Assembly (NCBI RefSeq): GCF_024178165.1
Contig: NZ_JAMZIE010000002.1
Span: 310,001-374,000 of the forward strand
DNA from: Halohasta salina
GTDB lineage: Archaea > Halobacteriota > Halobacteria > Halobacteriales > Haloferacaceae
Direction: 5' to 3'
DNA: 64,000 nt
The position numbers and the translations under genes were made by a program. The notes beneath the pieces are model-generated. The model made no database searches. It saw only the letters and a program-made list of their open reading frames with translations, and was not told where the DNA came from. Below, one piece after another: positions 38,664-52,504 of the stretch; the first letter of the stretch is position 1; each line of letters begins with the position of its first letter.

Positions 38664-39827
38664 CTACGGGCCGGGAATCTGTTCGAGCGCGTGGGTCAAC
38701 TCGTTGCGATCCGGCAGCACGTAGATCCGACACTGTGTCTCGCGGCCCCCGATTTCGATGGCGGAGTCGATCGTAAACGCGGACTCTTGGCTGCCGTCCA
38801 GCCGGTCGACGATGTCGTGGATCACCGCGGCTCCCTCGTCGCGGACGTACTCCGGCGGCGAGTGTTCGATGGTCGTCTTGAGCGTGTTCGCCCAGCCGTC
38901 GACGAACCCGCTGGTGAGGATGTTGCCGAGCTCCTCGATCGCCGGCTTCATCGCCGACTCGTCGACCGCGCCGTCGCCGGGCATCATCGCCGAGGCGACG
39001 GATTTGGCCGACCCCAGATCGAACAGCAACAGGAAGTAGCCGCTCGGGAGGCCGTCCATCTCGAAGACCGAGCCGACGTGGGTCTCGGTGCCGATGTTGT
39101 CGGCCATCTCCGATAACGACATGAACCGCAACTGGCTCACGTCGACGTCGGTGGCGAGCCCGGTGAGCATCGCGATCTGCTCGGAGGCGCGGTTCGCGCT
39201 CTGCTCGGCGAAGTCGTTGAAGATGGTGAGTTTTTCGGCCGGCACTGACGGGCCGTTCGACCGCCCGGCGAGCAGACTGACGAACTCGTCGTACTCCGGG
39301 ATCAGGTACATCGGCACCGAGAGATCGGTGTCTTTCGCCTCGAGTTGGCTCTGGAAGAGGAACACGCCCTCGTCGGCGGCCTCCCGCCGGGTCAGCCGCG
39401 GGAGGATCCGCGTGCCGGTCGCTTCGAGGTACGTCGGCGGCGTGATATCGACCGTGACGCCGAGATGGTTGGCCCAGCCGTCGACGAAGCCGCCGATCAT
39501 GATGTTGCCGATCTCGGCGAACGCGCTGCCGGTCATCGAGCCGGCGGCCGACGCGCCGGGGATCTGTTGTTTGATCTGGGCCGCCGAGTCGGGTTCCAGA
39601 ATCAGCACGGTTTCCCCCGAGAGCCCTCCATCGAGTCCGACCTGTACCCCGACGTACTGCTGGCCGGTGAAGATCTCCTGCAGCGCCGACTCCGTGACGA
39701 GGCTGACGCTGGTCATCTCGTCGCGAATCGTGAGACCGGTGAGCTGTGTGAGCGACGACGCGGCCTGACTGGCTCCGCGGGAGGCGAGGTGGTTGAACTG
39801 TTCGAGTTGGTTGATTTCGATTCTCAT
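38664..39827 (-). CDS. cheC: Tandem CheC-type chemotaxis protein
   Basis: 387 residues made of two CheC-like units (roughly 1-190 and 191-387). CheC/CheX proteins dephosphorylate CheY-P using E-x-x-N pairs on two helices. Here the pairs are Glu9/Asn12 and Glu105/Asn108 in unit one, and Glu299/Asn302 in unit two; the first site of unit two has Asn204 but Ile in place of the Glu usually expected. Both units share the duplicated pattern GNI...GFVDGWAN. In haloarchaea CheC acts with CheD and CheF in adapting the taxis response. No other che gene is adjacent. Confidence 0.88.
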   Translation of the reverse strand: MRIEINQLEQFNHLASRGASQAASSLTQLTGLTIRDEMTSVSLVTESALQEIFTGQQYVGVQVGLDGGLSGETVLILEPDSAAQIKQQIPGASAAGSMTGSAFAEIGNIMIGGFVDGWANHLGVTVDITPPTYLEATGTRILPRLTRREAADEGVFLFQSQLEAKDTDLSVPMYLIPEYDEFVSLLAGRSNGPSVPAEKLTIFNDFAEQSANRASEQIAMLTGLATDVDVSQLRFMSLSEMADNIGTETHVGSVFEMDGLPSGYFLLLFDLGSAKSVASAMMPGDGAVDESAMKPAIEELGNILTSGFVDGWANTLKTTIEHSPPEYVRDEGAAVIHDIVDRLDGSQESAFTIDSAIEIGGRETQCRIYVLPDRNELTHALEQIPGP

Positions 39828-43719: not shown

Positions 43720-43924
43720 GCGACCCGACGCGGTTCTCTTCGTCCGTCGACCGGCGAGCGACAGCGCCGACACGATCGACCGACCGCCGAGCGGGAGCGC
43801 TAGCCGAGCCGAGAGAGCAGAGACGACGGCCGTCGACCGCCCGCCCATCCATCGGGGTATCTACCGCAATTTATTAATAATAATTCCAATAATACATTGG
43901 CGTAATACAGTACGGTAGACATGT

Positions 43925-46060
43925 ATGGCTTCACGTAATCTACGGGCCGCCGAGCCAGCCGCGGCGTCGATCCGGCCGGCTGCGGCGCTCGAACCGTCGG
44001 CGTTCTACAGCGTGTATCGGGGCGGGCTGTCGTTGCCCGACGATCAACAGCGGCTCCGGGCCAGCGCCGTGGTGCTGTTGAGCGGGCGACTCGGGCTGTA
44101 TCCGGGCGAGATCCAGCATCTCCACGAGGCGTGGGTCGACTGGGGTCGCGGTGAGCTGGTCGTGCCGGAGCGTGATCCCTGTGCCTGCCAGCAGTGTTGG
44201 GAGGCCGCCCGACGCGCCCAGCGGCTGGGCGACGGCCGGTCGCTGCTGGAGATCATCGGCGAGTCGACGTGGTCGCCGCCGGGCGGTGGCCGAACGATCC
44301 CCTTCGGCTGGTCGGAGCGGCTGACCGCAGTGATCGGGGCGTTGGTCGAAGAGGCCGACCCGCTGGCGCTCTCGGCGGAGGCGATGACCCGGCTGGTCGA
44401 CCGGAGCGCCCGGCGGGCCGAAGGGGTCGACCACGAGGCGGTCGGCTTCGACAGCCTGCGGGCGACGGCGATCTCGTTTTTCGCCGACGCGGGGTTCCCG
44501 GCCGCACGGATCGCCCACCTCGCTGGCACCGACCCCGAGACGGCCCGGGCGTTCACCGGCCGGGAGGGTGGCGACGCCCGCGAACGGCTGTCCGAACTGT
44601 TCGACGGCGGGATCGCCGACCCCGGCGGGAGCTACGGGCTCGTGGCCGACCCCGAGCCGTTCGACGCCGAACCGGTCGATCCACGGGAGTACGACGACGA
44701 GTGGCGACAGCGGCGGATGCGACAGCGAGCCAACGCCCCCGAGGCGCTACAGAACCCCCGGCCGGTCGCCGACGCACTGAACCGGCGGCTCGATCCGAGC
44801 GACCTCGGCACGCGGCGGGCGCTCGACGCCGACAGCGACCTCGTCGACCCCGACAGCGCCACCGCGCGGCTCGACGAATGGGTCCACCGACGGGAGGCCG
44901 ACCGCCGGGGGACCGCGGGAACCGCCCACACAGCGGAGGCGTCGGCCACCCCATCGACGGGAAAGGAGTCGGGCGGTTCCAGTGGGACCACCGGCGAGCC
45001 GGCCGGTGTCGGCGCACGCAGTGCCGGAGCGGCCGATAACGCTGCGGCCGCCGACACAACGGCCGCCGCAACGGGTGGAAGCGGTGCGGCCGGGTCGACC
45101 GCCGATTTGGGAGCCAACGCGGAGGAGACGGCCGTCGAGGAGGCGGCGGTGTTCAACCCACGGGAGGAACTCAGCGGCCCGCCGGAGCTGACCGTCGAGA
45201 CCACCGTCGCCTGCTCGGAGTTCGCCGGCGGTCGGCCGACCGAAACGCGGGTGTTCCTCGGACCAGAGGAGCTGCTGTTGGTTCAGGCTGACGACTCGAT
45301 GGCCCCCGAGTACACCCGGATCGAGCTGTCGGGGGTCGTCGACCTCTCGCCGGACTACATCCCCGAAGAGCTTGCCGACAGCATCGAGTCGGCGGTCACC
45401 GTCGCCTACGAACGGGGCGGCGACCAGCGGCTCGCGGTGGTCGAACTCCGGGGCAACAGGCGGGTCGGCTTCGCCAACGCCGTCTTCAAGGCGATCCTCA
45501 CGGGATGTGACGCCATCGTCACCCACCCCGCCCGGCGTGGGGGTCGCGTGCTGAACACCGAGCCGGTCGAGGCGCGGCTCTCGGTCGACGACCGGTCGGT
45601 GTCGATCACCCCCGACGACGGCGAGCGGCTCGGGATCACGCTCTCGGAGATCATCCATTTCGAACTTGAAAAACAGGACTTCGAGGACAAACGGTATCGG
45701 GGGCTCTCCGTCCGTCACCTTGGCGACGGCGGGATGGCGACCAAGACGACGATCGCGCTCGAAGACGACCGGAAACACAAGCTCTTCCAGCGGTTCGTCC
45801 GGCGTGGCTACCGGGAGCGGAAGGCGAAGATCGAGGAGATCAGCCTCGAAGACGCACACAAGGAGGTGTTGGTCGCACTCTACTCGGCGGGCGATCAGTT
45901 CGACATCTCGATGATCGTCGACAAGTCGGCCGACAAACTCCAGCAGCTGTTGGGCTCGCTGGGCGAGATGGGACTGGTCCGAATCGGCGACAGTGGAGCC
46001 ACTCTGACCGGGCTCGGCCGGATCGTCGTCAACGAGAAACTCGACGACGTCAATATGTAG
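43925..46060 (+). CDS. cheF: CheF taxis protein with N-terminal tyrosine-recombinase-like domain
   Basis: 711 residues. Residues ~420-711 form a CheF domain (DUF439): RVFLGPEELLLV, GVVDLSPDYIPEELADSIE, CDAIVTHPARRGGRV, and an HTH-like end. CheF links the Che system (CheY, CheD, CheC) to the archaellum motor. Residues ~40-225 look like a haloarchaeal integrase catalytic domain: box I SGRLGLYPGEIQHL (Arg55), a cysteine cluster CACQQC (86-91), RTIPFGWSERL, box II DSLRATAISFFADAG (Arg179). The HxxR His is Asp176, and the Tyr position reads Phe210, so recombination is not expected. A ~190-residue linker rich in Ala/Gly/Thr joins the halves. The upstream region has an AT-rich TTTATTAATAATAATT promoter. 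Confidence 0.85.
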   Translation: MASRNLRAAEPAAASIRPAAALEPSAFYSVYRGGLSLPDDQQRLRASAVVLLSGRLGLYPGEIQHLHEAWVDWGRGELVVPERDPCACQQCWEAARRAQRLGDGRSLLEIIGESTWSPPGGGRTIPFGWSERLTAVIGALVEEADPLALSAEAMTRLVDRSARRAEGVDHEAVGFDSLRATAISFFADAGFPAARIAHLAGTDPETARAFTGREGGDARERLSELFDGGIADPGGSYGLVADPEPFDAEPVDPREYDDEWRQRRMRQRANAPEALQNPRPVADALNRRLDPSDLGTRRALDADSDLVDPDSATARLDEWVHRREADRRGTAGTAHTAEASATPSTGKESGGSSGTTGEPAGVGARSAGAADNAAAADTTAAATGGSGAAGSTADLGANAEETAVEEAAVFNPREELSGPPELTVETTVACSEFAGGRPTETRVFLGPEELLLVQADDSMAPEYTRIELSGVVDLSPDYIPEELADSIESAVTVAYERGGDQRLAVVELRGNRRVGFANAVFKAILTGCDAIVTHPARRGGRVLNTEPVEARLSVDDRSVSITPDDGERLGITLSEIIHFELEKQDFEDKRYRGLSVRHLGDGGMATKTTIALEDDRKHKLFQRFVRRGYRERKAKIEEISLEDAHKEVLVALYSAGDQFDISMIVDKSADKLQQLLGSLGEMGLVRIGDSGATLTGLGRIVVNEKLDDVNM

Positions 46061-49239: not shown

Positions 49240-50232
49240 ATGACGTTCCGTGGCGGTTCCGACCTGGCGACGGTGTACGACGACGCCCTCGAAGAGGGGT
49301 TCGGTCTGATCGCAAGCAACATCGCCGAACCGAACGTGCTGATCGGCCTGATCAAGGGGGCGGCACGCGTCGACTCCGATCTCCTCCTCCAGATGAGCAA
49401 TGGGGCCTGTAGCTTCGCGGGCAACGGCGATCCGATCGCTGGACTGCGAGTGATGGGCACCTATATCGAACGCATTGCCGCCCCCTACGATATCGGGGTG
49501 TTCCTGAACATGGACCATCAGACCGATCTCAACACCATCGAGCGACAGATCGAGCTCGAAATCCCCTCCTCGATCATGATCGACGCCTCCCACGACTCCT
49601 TCGAGGAGAACGTCGAAAAGAGCAAACAGGTCGTCGACTGGGTCGAAGCCGCCGACGCCGACATCCTCGTTGAGGCCGAACTCGGGACGATCAAGGGGGT
49701 CGAAGACGAGATCGTCGCCGAGGAGGCCTTCTACACCGACCCCGAGCAGGCCGTCGAGTTCGTCGACCGGACGGGCTGTGATCTGCTGGCGATCTCGGTC
49801 GGCACCCAGCACGGCGTCGCCAAGGGGAAGGATCTCGAACTCCGGCCGGATCTGACCGAGGAGATCCGGGACGCCCTGCGGGACCACGGGCTCGACACGC
49901 CACTGGTCCTCCATGGCTCGTCGGGTGTCCAGTCCGACCAGCTTCAGGAGATGTTACAGCACGGCATCTGCAAGGTCAACAAGGACACCCGGTATCAGTA
50001 CGAGTACACCCGGACGGCCTTCGACCGCTACCGCGAGGCGGCCGACGAGATCGTCCCGCCGGAGGGGATCGAAGACCACCGCGACAGCTTCTTCAACGAC
50101 GTCGACTGGGCCCCCAACAAGGACCGGTTCGATCCCCGTGTGGCCGGCCGTGACATCCGCGAGCGCATCGCCGACGTCTACGCCGCCCTCGCCGAAGTCG
50201 CCGGGAGCGCCGGTCGGAGCGAATTTAGCTAG
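49240..50232 (+). CDS. fba: Class II fructose-bisphosphate aldolase family protein
   Basis: 330 residues. The zinc-binding and catalytic pattern of class II aldolases is visible: [10 protein letters not shown] (metal/catalytic Asp region), [28 protein letters not shown], and the [22 protein letters not shown] phosphate-binding loops. The enzyme cleaves fructose-1,6-bisphosphate to triose phosphates; haloarchaea use class II aldolase in gluconeogenesis and fructose breakdown. Convergent with sopI, overlapping its end by four bases. Confidence 0.9.
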
Positions 50233-50975
50233 CTGGGATCGGCGCTCGCTGCCGGTGTGTCGGTCGACTCGGGTTCGGTTCCCCCGGATTCGGCTGCCAG
50301 CGGTTCGGTGCGGAACGCCGTTCGTTCCCGATAGACGAAGTAGACGTACGGCGTCTTGGCGACCACGTCAAGATAGGCGATGATCATCGCAGTGCCGGTG
50401 ACCGAAACGTACCCAACCCCGGCAGGACTGGCTATCCAGATCACCGGGTAGGCGATCCACAGCAGTCCAACGTGGTTCTGAAGGATGCGGAACAGCCGCC
50501 GCCGGCTGGGATTGTCCTGAACGTACCTCGGGAAGACGAGATAGAGGATGGCCAGCAACACGAGGTGGAACGCCGCCGAGATGCCGAACCCGATCCACGT
50601 CCCGATCCCGGTCGCGAGCGTCGCAGCGAGTCCCGTGGCGATCATCAGCGCGTCGGCGAGCCCGACGCCGACGACCCACTTTCTGGGTGCGCCGGCGACG
50701 TAACCGGCGTAGCCGACCAGGATCGGCGTCGTCACGATCCAGTCGATGTATCTGAACAGGTACACCTCGTTTTCGCCGACCGTGATCACGCCGACCTCCA
50801 AGACCATCAACAGGTAGGAGATCGCCGCGAAGCCGGGGATGACCAAGAGCCACTTGAACTGGCCGGTGGCGTTGTCGACCGTCTCTTCGCGGAGCAACTT
50901 GAGGGCGATCCAGATCCCCACGAGCAGGCCGACGAAGCTCGTCGTGTAGGCGGCGGTCACTGCCGGATCGGCCAT
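50229..50975 (-). CDS. sopI: Sensory rhodopsin I
   Basis: 248 residues, seven helices. Retinal Lys207 lies in [13 protein letters not shown] with Asp203 four residues before; the helix C motif [18 protein letters not shown] carries Asp78 (Asp76 of the Halobacterium protein). The proton-donor Asp of pumps is replaced by Tyr, as in sensory types. His168 in NHVGLLW matches the SRI hallmark His166, and [15 protein letters not shown] is the SRI helix G end, so SRI rather than SRII or bacteriorhodopsin. It signals orange/UV light to HtrI. TGATG overlap with htrI (one base) indicates coupled translation. Confidence 0.95.
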
Positions 50976-52504
50976 CAGAACCCGCCTCCCCTGGTCGCGC
51001 CCGTCGAACGACGTCTCCCGAGGTCGAACGTGTCGAGTTCACCGACCAGCTCGCGGGCGTTGCTATCGAACTCCTGGATGCGGCTCTCGATCCGCATGAA
51101 CCCATCGCGCTGGTCGGTGATCGCGTCGGCGACGCTGGTCGCGGTCGACTCCAGTTCCCGACTCATCTCGGAGACGTCGTTGGTACCGGCCGCAATCGTC
51201 TGGACGGTCTCGGCCTGATCGCCGGTCGCATCGCTGATCTCGGCGACCCCGTTGTCGATCTCCTCGACGGCGTCGCCGATCCGGTGGAGGTTCTCGACGG
51301 CCTCCTCGACGGTGTCGGTCCCCCGAGTCACGCGCTCGCGGGTCGACCGCACCGAGTCGGCGGCGTCGTCGGTCTGCTCGCGGAGGTCGGCGATCATCGT
51401 GGCGATCTCGTCGGCCCGCGTGCGGGTCTCCTCGGAAAGGCTCTTGACCTCGTTGGCAACGACCGCGAAGCTCTCGCCGGCGTTCCCGCTGCCGCTGGCG
51501 CGGGCGGCCTCCGTCGAGGCGTTGAGCGCGAGCATGTTGGTCTGGTCGGCGATGTCGTCGATTACCTCGACGATATCGGTGATCTCCGCGGTGGTCTCGG
51601 TGAGCGATTCGATCGTCTCGACGGTCTCGGTCGTCTCCCGTTCGATGGCCTCCATCTCCTCGATCGCTTCGGTCGCGGCCTCGCGTGCGTCGGCACTCGC
51701 CGTCGTCGTATCGTCGGTGATCTCCGAGAGATCGTCGGTCGTCGCGGCGATCTGTTCGGCCGCCGCCGACATGTTGTCGGTGTCCATCGCGATCTCTTCG
51801 AGCCGCTCGCGCTGTCGGTTGGCGTTGTCGGTGATCTCGTCGGTCGTCTCGACGGCTTGGTCGATCGAGCGCCGCATCTCGTCGCTCAGCCCGGCGATCT
51901 CGTCGGTGTCCCGCTGGATCTCGGTGGCGAACTCGTCGACCGCTCGCAGTGCCGTCGTGAGATCCTCGATAGCGCGGTTGAACTCCCGGCCGATGGTCGC
52001 CATCGCGGCGCGGTCTTCGTCGACGTCGACGCGCTGTGTCAGATCACCGCCGGCGACCTGCTGCATCGTCTCGGCGTAGCGTTCGGCCGTCTGCTGGTAG
52101 GCCGTCGCCAGCTGCTTTGCGTCCTGTTCAGCCTCTCTGGCCTCCTGTTGGGCCTGTTCTGCGGCCGACCGAGCCTCGCTTGCCCGGTCGATCTCCTCGG
52201 CCAGTGACCCACGCATCGTGTCGATAGCCGAGAACAGCCGCCCGAACTCGTCGTAGCGGTTCGACTCGATCTCGGTGTCGAGTTCGCCCTCGGCGATCGC
52301 TATCGCCCGGGTTTCGAGCTCCTCGATCGACGCGATCGTGTTCGTTCCCGTAATAGATCCCAACGCCAGCAGCCCGGCCCACGTCATCATGACCGCCGCC
52401 GCCACGCTCCCGGTGACGACCCCCACGACGGTTGTCATGCTCCCGGTGATGACGTACCCCAGAACCAGCTTCGTCCCGTACGAACCTCGCAACGCATGCC
52501 CCAT
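50975..52504 (-). CDS. htrI: Sensory rhodopsin I transducer HtrI
   Basis: 509 residues. Two membrane helices (about 11-31 and 35-52) with almost no extracellular loop, as in HtrI; HAMP-type signal-relay segments follow (~50-190, DLTQRVDVDEDRAAM), then a long coiled coil and the MCP hairpin tip (~319-361, with NMLALNAS and FAVVANEVKSLSEET). The region around residue 50 reads LGSITGTNTIASI; the residue equivalent to Glu56 of H. salinarum HtrI is Asn55. It forms a 2:2 complex with SRI, the gene directly downstream, and controls CheA. The start is near a TATA element at -27. Confidence 0.93.
   Translation of the reverse strand: MGHALRGSYGTKLVLGYVITGSMTTVVGVVTGSVAAAVMMTWAGLLALGSITGTNTIASIEELETRAIAIAEGELDTEIESNRYDEFGRLFSAIDTMRGSLAEEIDRASEARSAAEQAQQEAREAEQDAKQLATAYQQTAERYAETMQQVAGGDLTQRVDVDEDRAAMATIGREFNRAIEDLTTALRAVDEFATEIQRDTDEIAGLSDEMRRSIDQAVETTDEITDNANRQRERLEEIAMDTDNMSAAAEQIAATTDDLSEITDDTTTASADAREAATEAIEEMEAIERETTETVETIESLTETTAEITDIVEVIDDIADQTNMLALNASTEAARASGSGNAGESFAVVANEVKSLSEETRTRADEIATMIADLREQTDDAADSVRSTRERVTRGTDTVEEAVENLHRIGDAVEEIDNGVAEISDATGDQAETVQTIAAGTNDVSEMSRELESTATSVADAITDQRDGFMRIESRIQEFDSNARELVGELDTFDLGRRRSTGATRGGGF

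Follow-up and report, generated by a model that had tools for sequence, protein, structure and literature searches.

Haloarchaeal CheF was reported to dimerize via its C-terminal tail, where it binds CheY-P, and to dock to ArlCDE probably via its PH-like domains (PMC9126983). In Haloferax volcanii, GFP-CheF complements but CheF-GFP does not (PMC9126983), so that an N-terminal fusion sits at the end which CheF tolerates. The 2009 CheF paper noted two Haloarcula marismortui CheF paralogs located outside the che region, whose role was left open (PMC2666748). Int1, a haloviral recombinase, is an integrase encoded within an invertible tail-fiber segment (PMC6210493). MrpR/YopR, the master repressor of the SPbeta prophage, is a dead tyrosine recombinase retained for a different function (PMC10516654).

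The protein described here, denoted rec-CheF, is a new architecture constructed from two known parts; a search of the open-access literature gave no earlier description of a CheF with a recombinase domain. It shares the PH-like region and C-terminal tail with the CheF1-type adaptors (PF04283; H. volcanii CheF, OE2402F, PDB 7ovp), whereas its N-terminal extension of approximately 418 residues, its own clade, its location outside the che region, and its presence as an additional copy rather than a replacement distinguish it from them. Its N-terminal domain resembles haloviral Int1 (PhiCh1, PhiH1) and plasmid integrases (PF00589), which are likewise single-domain and carry the His65 and CxCxxC residues (29–34% identity, E 1e-11 to 7e-21). 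The aligned free Int1-type relatives keep R-K-H-R-W-Y, stand alone, and are often borne on plasmids or viruses; the domain in question is missing K, H, W, and Y, is fused to CheF, and is chromosomal. MrpR possesses a core-binding domain as well as the Lys and Tyr residues and is a DNA-binding repressor, whereas this domain is without these and is joined to a signaling partner. A further comparison is provided by haloarchaeal recombinases with C-terminal hydrophobic helices (TM-type), which have the recombinase domain and post-domain segment in common with rec-CheF but mostly intact catalytic residues, and the helices in place of CheF.

The window, i.e., the whole 64,000-nucleotide stretch of Halohasta salina DNA that was analyzed, belongs to a 3.04 Mb genome of 25 contigs. 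The rec-CheF gene forms one open frame of 711 codons, whose ATG follows the upstream stop after a gap of only two codons. Its features are as follows.

43868..43886, + strand: TATA-like element AATTTATTAATAATAATTC, approximately 40–57 bp 5′ of the rec-CheF ATG, from sequence comparison
43925..46060, + strand: rec-CheF gene, 711 aa, single ORF, with relatives in 11 other genomes
43961..44599, + strand: tyrosine-recombinase-like domain, residues 13–225, from the AF2 model, fold searches, and homology to integrases
44087..44089, + strand: Arg55 as catalytic Arg I, retained by 12/12 fusions (alignment)
44117..44119, + strand: His65, invariant in 12/12 fusions (alignment)
44180..44197, + strand: Cys86-x-Cys88-x2-Cys91 (CxCxxC) cluster, in 12/12 fusions and 32/32 other rows (alignment)
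44279..44281, + strand: Pro119 at the β-hairpin Lys position; Lys lost in 12/12 fusions (alignment)
44450..44461, + strand: Asp176-Ser-Leu-Arg179, the HxxR motif; His lost in 12/12 fusions, Arg II kept in 9/12 (alignment)
44552..44554, + strand: Phe210 at the catalytic Tyr position; Tyr lost in 9/12 fusions (alignment)
44627..44914, + strand: conserved post-recombinase segment, residues 235–330 (PxPF..EP.DP, NPRP), common to the TM-type proteins (alignments)
44915..45178, + strand: low-complexity linker, residues 331–418, with pLDDT below 50 nearly throughout the model
45179..46057, + strand: CheF module, residues 419–711, comprising the PH-like region and C-terminal tail domain (Pfam; domain roles from PMC9126983)

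The closest named relative is that of Halohasta litorea R30, with an N-terminal part 66% identical. On comparison of the two upstream sequences, the TATA-like 19-mer appeared in identical letters, and it is assumed to be the putative promoter of the rec-CheF gene. The neighboring genes encode an S1/OB-fold protein and a ZIP transporter, and the locus lies outside any che gene region; the che genes of this genome are located on contig C23, where cheA-, cheB-, and cheW-like genes were read from the ORFs together with an ArlD/E match. Neighborhood comparison showed the gene position to be conserved among Halohasta species only, and no conserved taxis neighbor was found beyond the genus across the fusion genomes. 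A second PF04659 gene was considered as a partner of the fusion and rejected, since it occurs in fusion-free genomes too. Around the locus, a CheC/CheX-type gene (window 38664–39827, − strand) lies approximately 4 kb from the fused CheF and is missing at the equivalent place in H. litorea and in a complete second Halohasta genome (G021). A gene pair made up of a sensory-rhodopsin-like gene and, after it, a short HAMP-MCP transducer (window 50229–52504, − strand) is also not at the equivalent place in either genome, indicating that several taxis genes are scattered around the locus in the window genome.

The N-terminal region of approximately 225 residues had been assigned to the tyrosine recombinases by a sequence-only reading, and this assignment is borne out by profile homology, predicted fold, catalytic columns, and trees. 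Residues 1–248 match approximately 40 shorter proteins within the family at 30–35% identity (E down to 1e-26), and homologous haloarchaeal and haloviral integrases were detected at E 1e-11 to 1e-26. Among them, the plasmid relatives are annotated as site-specific integrases, and those in phage records include Int1 of PhiCh1 and PhiH1 and the HCTV-5 integrase (E 7e-21). Pfam gave no integrase match in residues 1–248, the protein falling short of the PF00589 curated cut-off, which was passed by 4/4 free forms and 2/3 TM-type forms scanned. A profile of this domain and its viral relatives matched XerD at 2e-8 when searched against PDB sequences. The AlphaFold model of residues 1–258, built from 15 sequences, exhibited a mean pLDDT of 77, which rose to approximately 90 across most of residues 21–210. 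Its best solved matches in the fold search were the integrase 3nkh (Z 16.3 over 179 residues) and XerA (Z 16.2), followed by Tn1549 Int (Z 15.7) and XerH (Z 15.0); YopR (8bj6, Z 12.1) and MrpR (8a0a, Z 11.7) were matched more weakly. The recombinase fold was hence predicted confidently, contrary to the possibility raised in advance that structure prediction might give no such fold. Ancestry and predicted fold both place the N-terminal domain among the tyrosine recombinases.

The catalytic columns were aligned for 44 domains, comprising 12 fusions and 32 other rows. Every residue named in the sequence-only reading (R55, C86/C88/C91, TIPFGW, L178-R179-A-T, D176, and F210) had been placed correctly, and the alignment adds two losses to its list, namely the replacement of the β-hairpin Lys by P119 and of the W/H after G201 by T202. 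This Lys is kept in 32/32 other rows, and the hairpin is usually shortened in the fusions. The Trp of the GW motif is lost in 12/12 fusions, and the catalytic Tyr is still present in three of them (G054, G311, and G375). In the window domain, P119, D176, T202, and F210 break the R-K-H-R-H/W-Y set of active enzymes, and its loss of catalytic residues with retention of the fold corresponds to the situation of MrpR. From these residue losses, we infer that the recombinase domain of the fusions is catalytically dead. His65 is speculated to be a possible fourth zinc ligand next to the three cysteines. Residues Y31, A87, T124, W129, A135, F185, and A197 are near-invariant in the fusions and rare or absent in the free enzymes, suggesting a new conserved interface. 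The free enzymes have 16 conserved basic columns; at 9 of them, no fusion carries a basic residue, and 5 of these 9 losses are common to the TM-type relatives that keep catalytic residues; acidic residues were gained at 11 columns. Net charge was also considered as a case against DNA binding. This is weakened by the overlap between the fused domains and the free enzymes, and the domain on the whole is less acidic than the CheF part.

The C-terminal part had been described as a normal CheF. Its identity as a CheF holds, with a Pfam CheF-arch match (PF04283) at residues 439–630 (E 8.3e-31, 107.9 bits against a cut-off of 25), while the word normal does not, as it represents a divergent, CheF1-like third class. 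The window copy keeps 37 of the 54 CheF1-conserved columns, compared with means of 66% for the fusions and 49% for CheF2. Nearly all of the CheF1-conserved columns are kept in its tail (647 to 710); by these residues the tail domain is of the CheY-P-binding kind, and binding is predicted. The full-length AF2 model (pLDDT 56) was built on a shallow CheF alignment and holds no inter-domain information, and its CheF half gave PH-domain matches. Two more CheF genes are present in the same genome on contigs C19 and C23, and its CheF1-type protein is 32% identical to the CheF part of rec-CheF. A plasmid search gave no match for the CheF part. All 12 fusion genomes carry other, ordinary CheF genes and ArlD/E. 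The former makes rec-CheF an accessory CheF; the latter is weak support for a role in motility, because ArlD/E is common regardless of the fusion (84/99 genomes of the family).

A search of other haloarchaeal genomes, with the catalytic columns aligned, had been proposed together with the original assignment, and the same fusion indeed recurs: it was detected in 12 genomes including the window genome, spread over 6 genera in 2 Halobacteriales families, which is more than chance. Its own family contributes H. litorea (744 aa), G021, G072, G054, G035, and G009 in addition to the window copy, and the second family G150, G304, G363, G311, and G375. No match to the module was found outside Halobacteriales among the 295 genomes of the phylum searched, and a scan of viral contigs found neither the fusion nor the TM form. 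In the recombinase tree, all 12 fusion domains form one clade (100/98), including the very divergent domain of G150, which indicates that the fusion arose once. The CheF halves group on the CheF1 side, separate from CheF2, in a clade (100/100) that also takes in two unfused CheF-like pieces with long branches, one of them next to the G304 fusion and the other in G023. The simplest reading of these trees is a single fusion event, which would have occurred once in Halobacteriales. Several individual loci show peculiarities. The G021 gene (L064:9546-11635) contains a frame change in the linker, which may reflect a sequencing error, a pseudogene, or a split gene. The second CheF-like gene adjoining the G304 rec-CheF gene (L128:11224-12183, − strand) has a C-terminus weakly resembling the N-terminal domain of HVO_A0261. 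G072 gave eight CheF-arch matches, some of them short pieces, and several CheF-like matches came from G023 of the same genus (g23), suggesting multiplication of CheF within the genus.

The TM-type proteins (G038, G096, G114, G418, G428, and G243) consist of the recombinase domain, the post-domain segment, and hydrophobic C-terminal helices, while G033 carries the post-domain segment but, by the measure used, no clear TM helix. Most of them keep R-K-H-R-W-Y, with His changed to Arg in G428 and G243, and in the tree they take an intermediate position, with the CheF fusions on one side and the free enzymes on the other. With this midpoint-rooted tree as the sole guide, the probable course is initial gain of the extension, loss of catalysis in the lineage of the CheF fusions, and different C-terminal partners on different branches. 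The six loci (L071:9375-10811, L073:8703-10139, L072:10838-12274, L134:9024-10460, L130:3904-5556, and L133:8980-10347), four of which encode intact catalytic residues, have C-terminal helices that are probably transmembrane. If the TM-type forms are membrane-anchored recombinases, they would be unusual in their own right. The near-identity of the G038, G096, and G418 proteins, despite their different genus or family, raises the question of a mobile element.

Pairwise NG86 dN/dS values were 0.20–0.55 for the recombinase part and 0.15–0.64 for the CheF part, which are rough values, most pairs being close to saturation at synonymous sites. The low-divergence pair G311/G375 gave 0.20 and 0.15, respectively. 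Judging from these substitutions, we show here that the recombinase domain evolves under purifying selection, i.e., it appears dead but maintained.

The explanation to which we give about an even chance is that rec-CheF is a third, accessory CheF class, in which the dead recombinase is an interaction or oligomerization module on a linker. A single-domain Int1-type recombinase with a conserved C-terminal extension would have become fused N-terminally to a CheF1-type adaptor. The CheF half would then use its PH-like domains to dock to ArlCDE, the archaellum switch, and/or its tail to bind CheY-P, and the dead recombinase, held on a long flexible linker, may act as a protein-interaction or self-association module. 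Such a module could add a second input or a localizing signal to the taxis output, or let the protein compete with ordinary CheF. Protein interaction or self-association is preferred because of the 9 lost basic columns and the 11 more acidic ones. The same changes, the former weighing mildly, speak together with the loss of the hairpin Lys in all fusions against a DNA-tethered CheF, that is, a transcription or nucleoid-associated factor in which the CheF part detects CheY-P or ties up the adaptor. We regard this as rather unlikely, although the phosphate-contacting Arg I (12/12) and Arg II (9/12) were kept along with the fold, which fits residual DNA contact and counts against the preferred explanation. 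The dead DNA-binding repressor MrpR (PMC10516654) is also among the structural matches, and the lower acidity of the domain relative to the CheF part points the same way. The specific idea of a taxis adaptor that binds DNA via a domesticated viral-type recombinase, coupling CheY-P or the motor state to a chromosomal site, is doubtful. If true, such a DNA-binding adaptor would permit, for example, control of archaellum and taxis genes, or polar positioning of motor and chromosome.

The recombinase part may instead be a neutral or decaying appendage, a frozen leftover of the fusion, with the CheF half doing all the work. The frameshifted G021 copy, the divergent G150 domain, and the G023 CheF-like piece, which lacks the recombinase half and falls beside the Halohasta-type fusions, would all agree with decay. 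We consider it improbable, however, given dN/dS values close to those of the CheF half, invariant His65 and C86/88/91, the fusion-specific near-invariant residues, and retention across 6 genera. Tyrosine recombinases work as tetramers, in which dead subunits can be dominant negative. Close kinship with haloviral Int1 and the HCTV-5 integrase would suit an anti-recombinase or immunity role, where the dead domain enters and poisons the tetramers formed by viral invertases or integrases of the Int1 type, and CheF is only the carrier or regulator. This would leave CheF as the conserved partner unexplained, no link to defense genes was seen in the neighborhoods examined, and we find it very unlikely. 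It is scarcely to be expected, lastly, that one gene gives two proteins by translation of a separate CheF from an internal start, an outcome which had been named in advance as one that would overturn the fusion. The window copy does contain a GTG (Val409) after GAGGAGG just before the CheF part, and the G021 copy runs in two frames. Against these, several copies (G072, G009, and G304) have no NTG near the domain boundary, no Shine-Dalgarno-like start is conserved among the fusion copies, and the TATA-like element precedes the recombinase part; no internal CheF start is conserved across the family.

The rec-CheF family presents a clear instance of a mobile-element enzyme captured by a signaling pathway, in which catalysis was lost, the fold and metal-type cluster were kept, and the partner was changed. 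The stages can be viewed as a graded series in living genomes, running from free recombinases through TM-type forms with mostly kept catalytic residues to the dead CheF-fused forms. As a third kind of CheF in haloarchaea, it may also bear on the extra CheF copies found outside che regions (PMC2666748).
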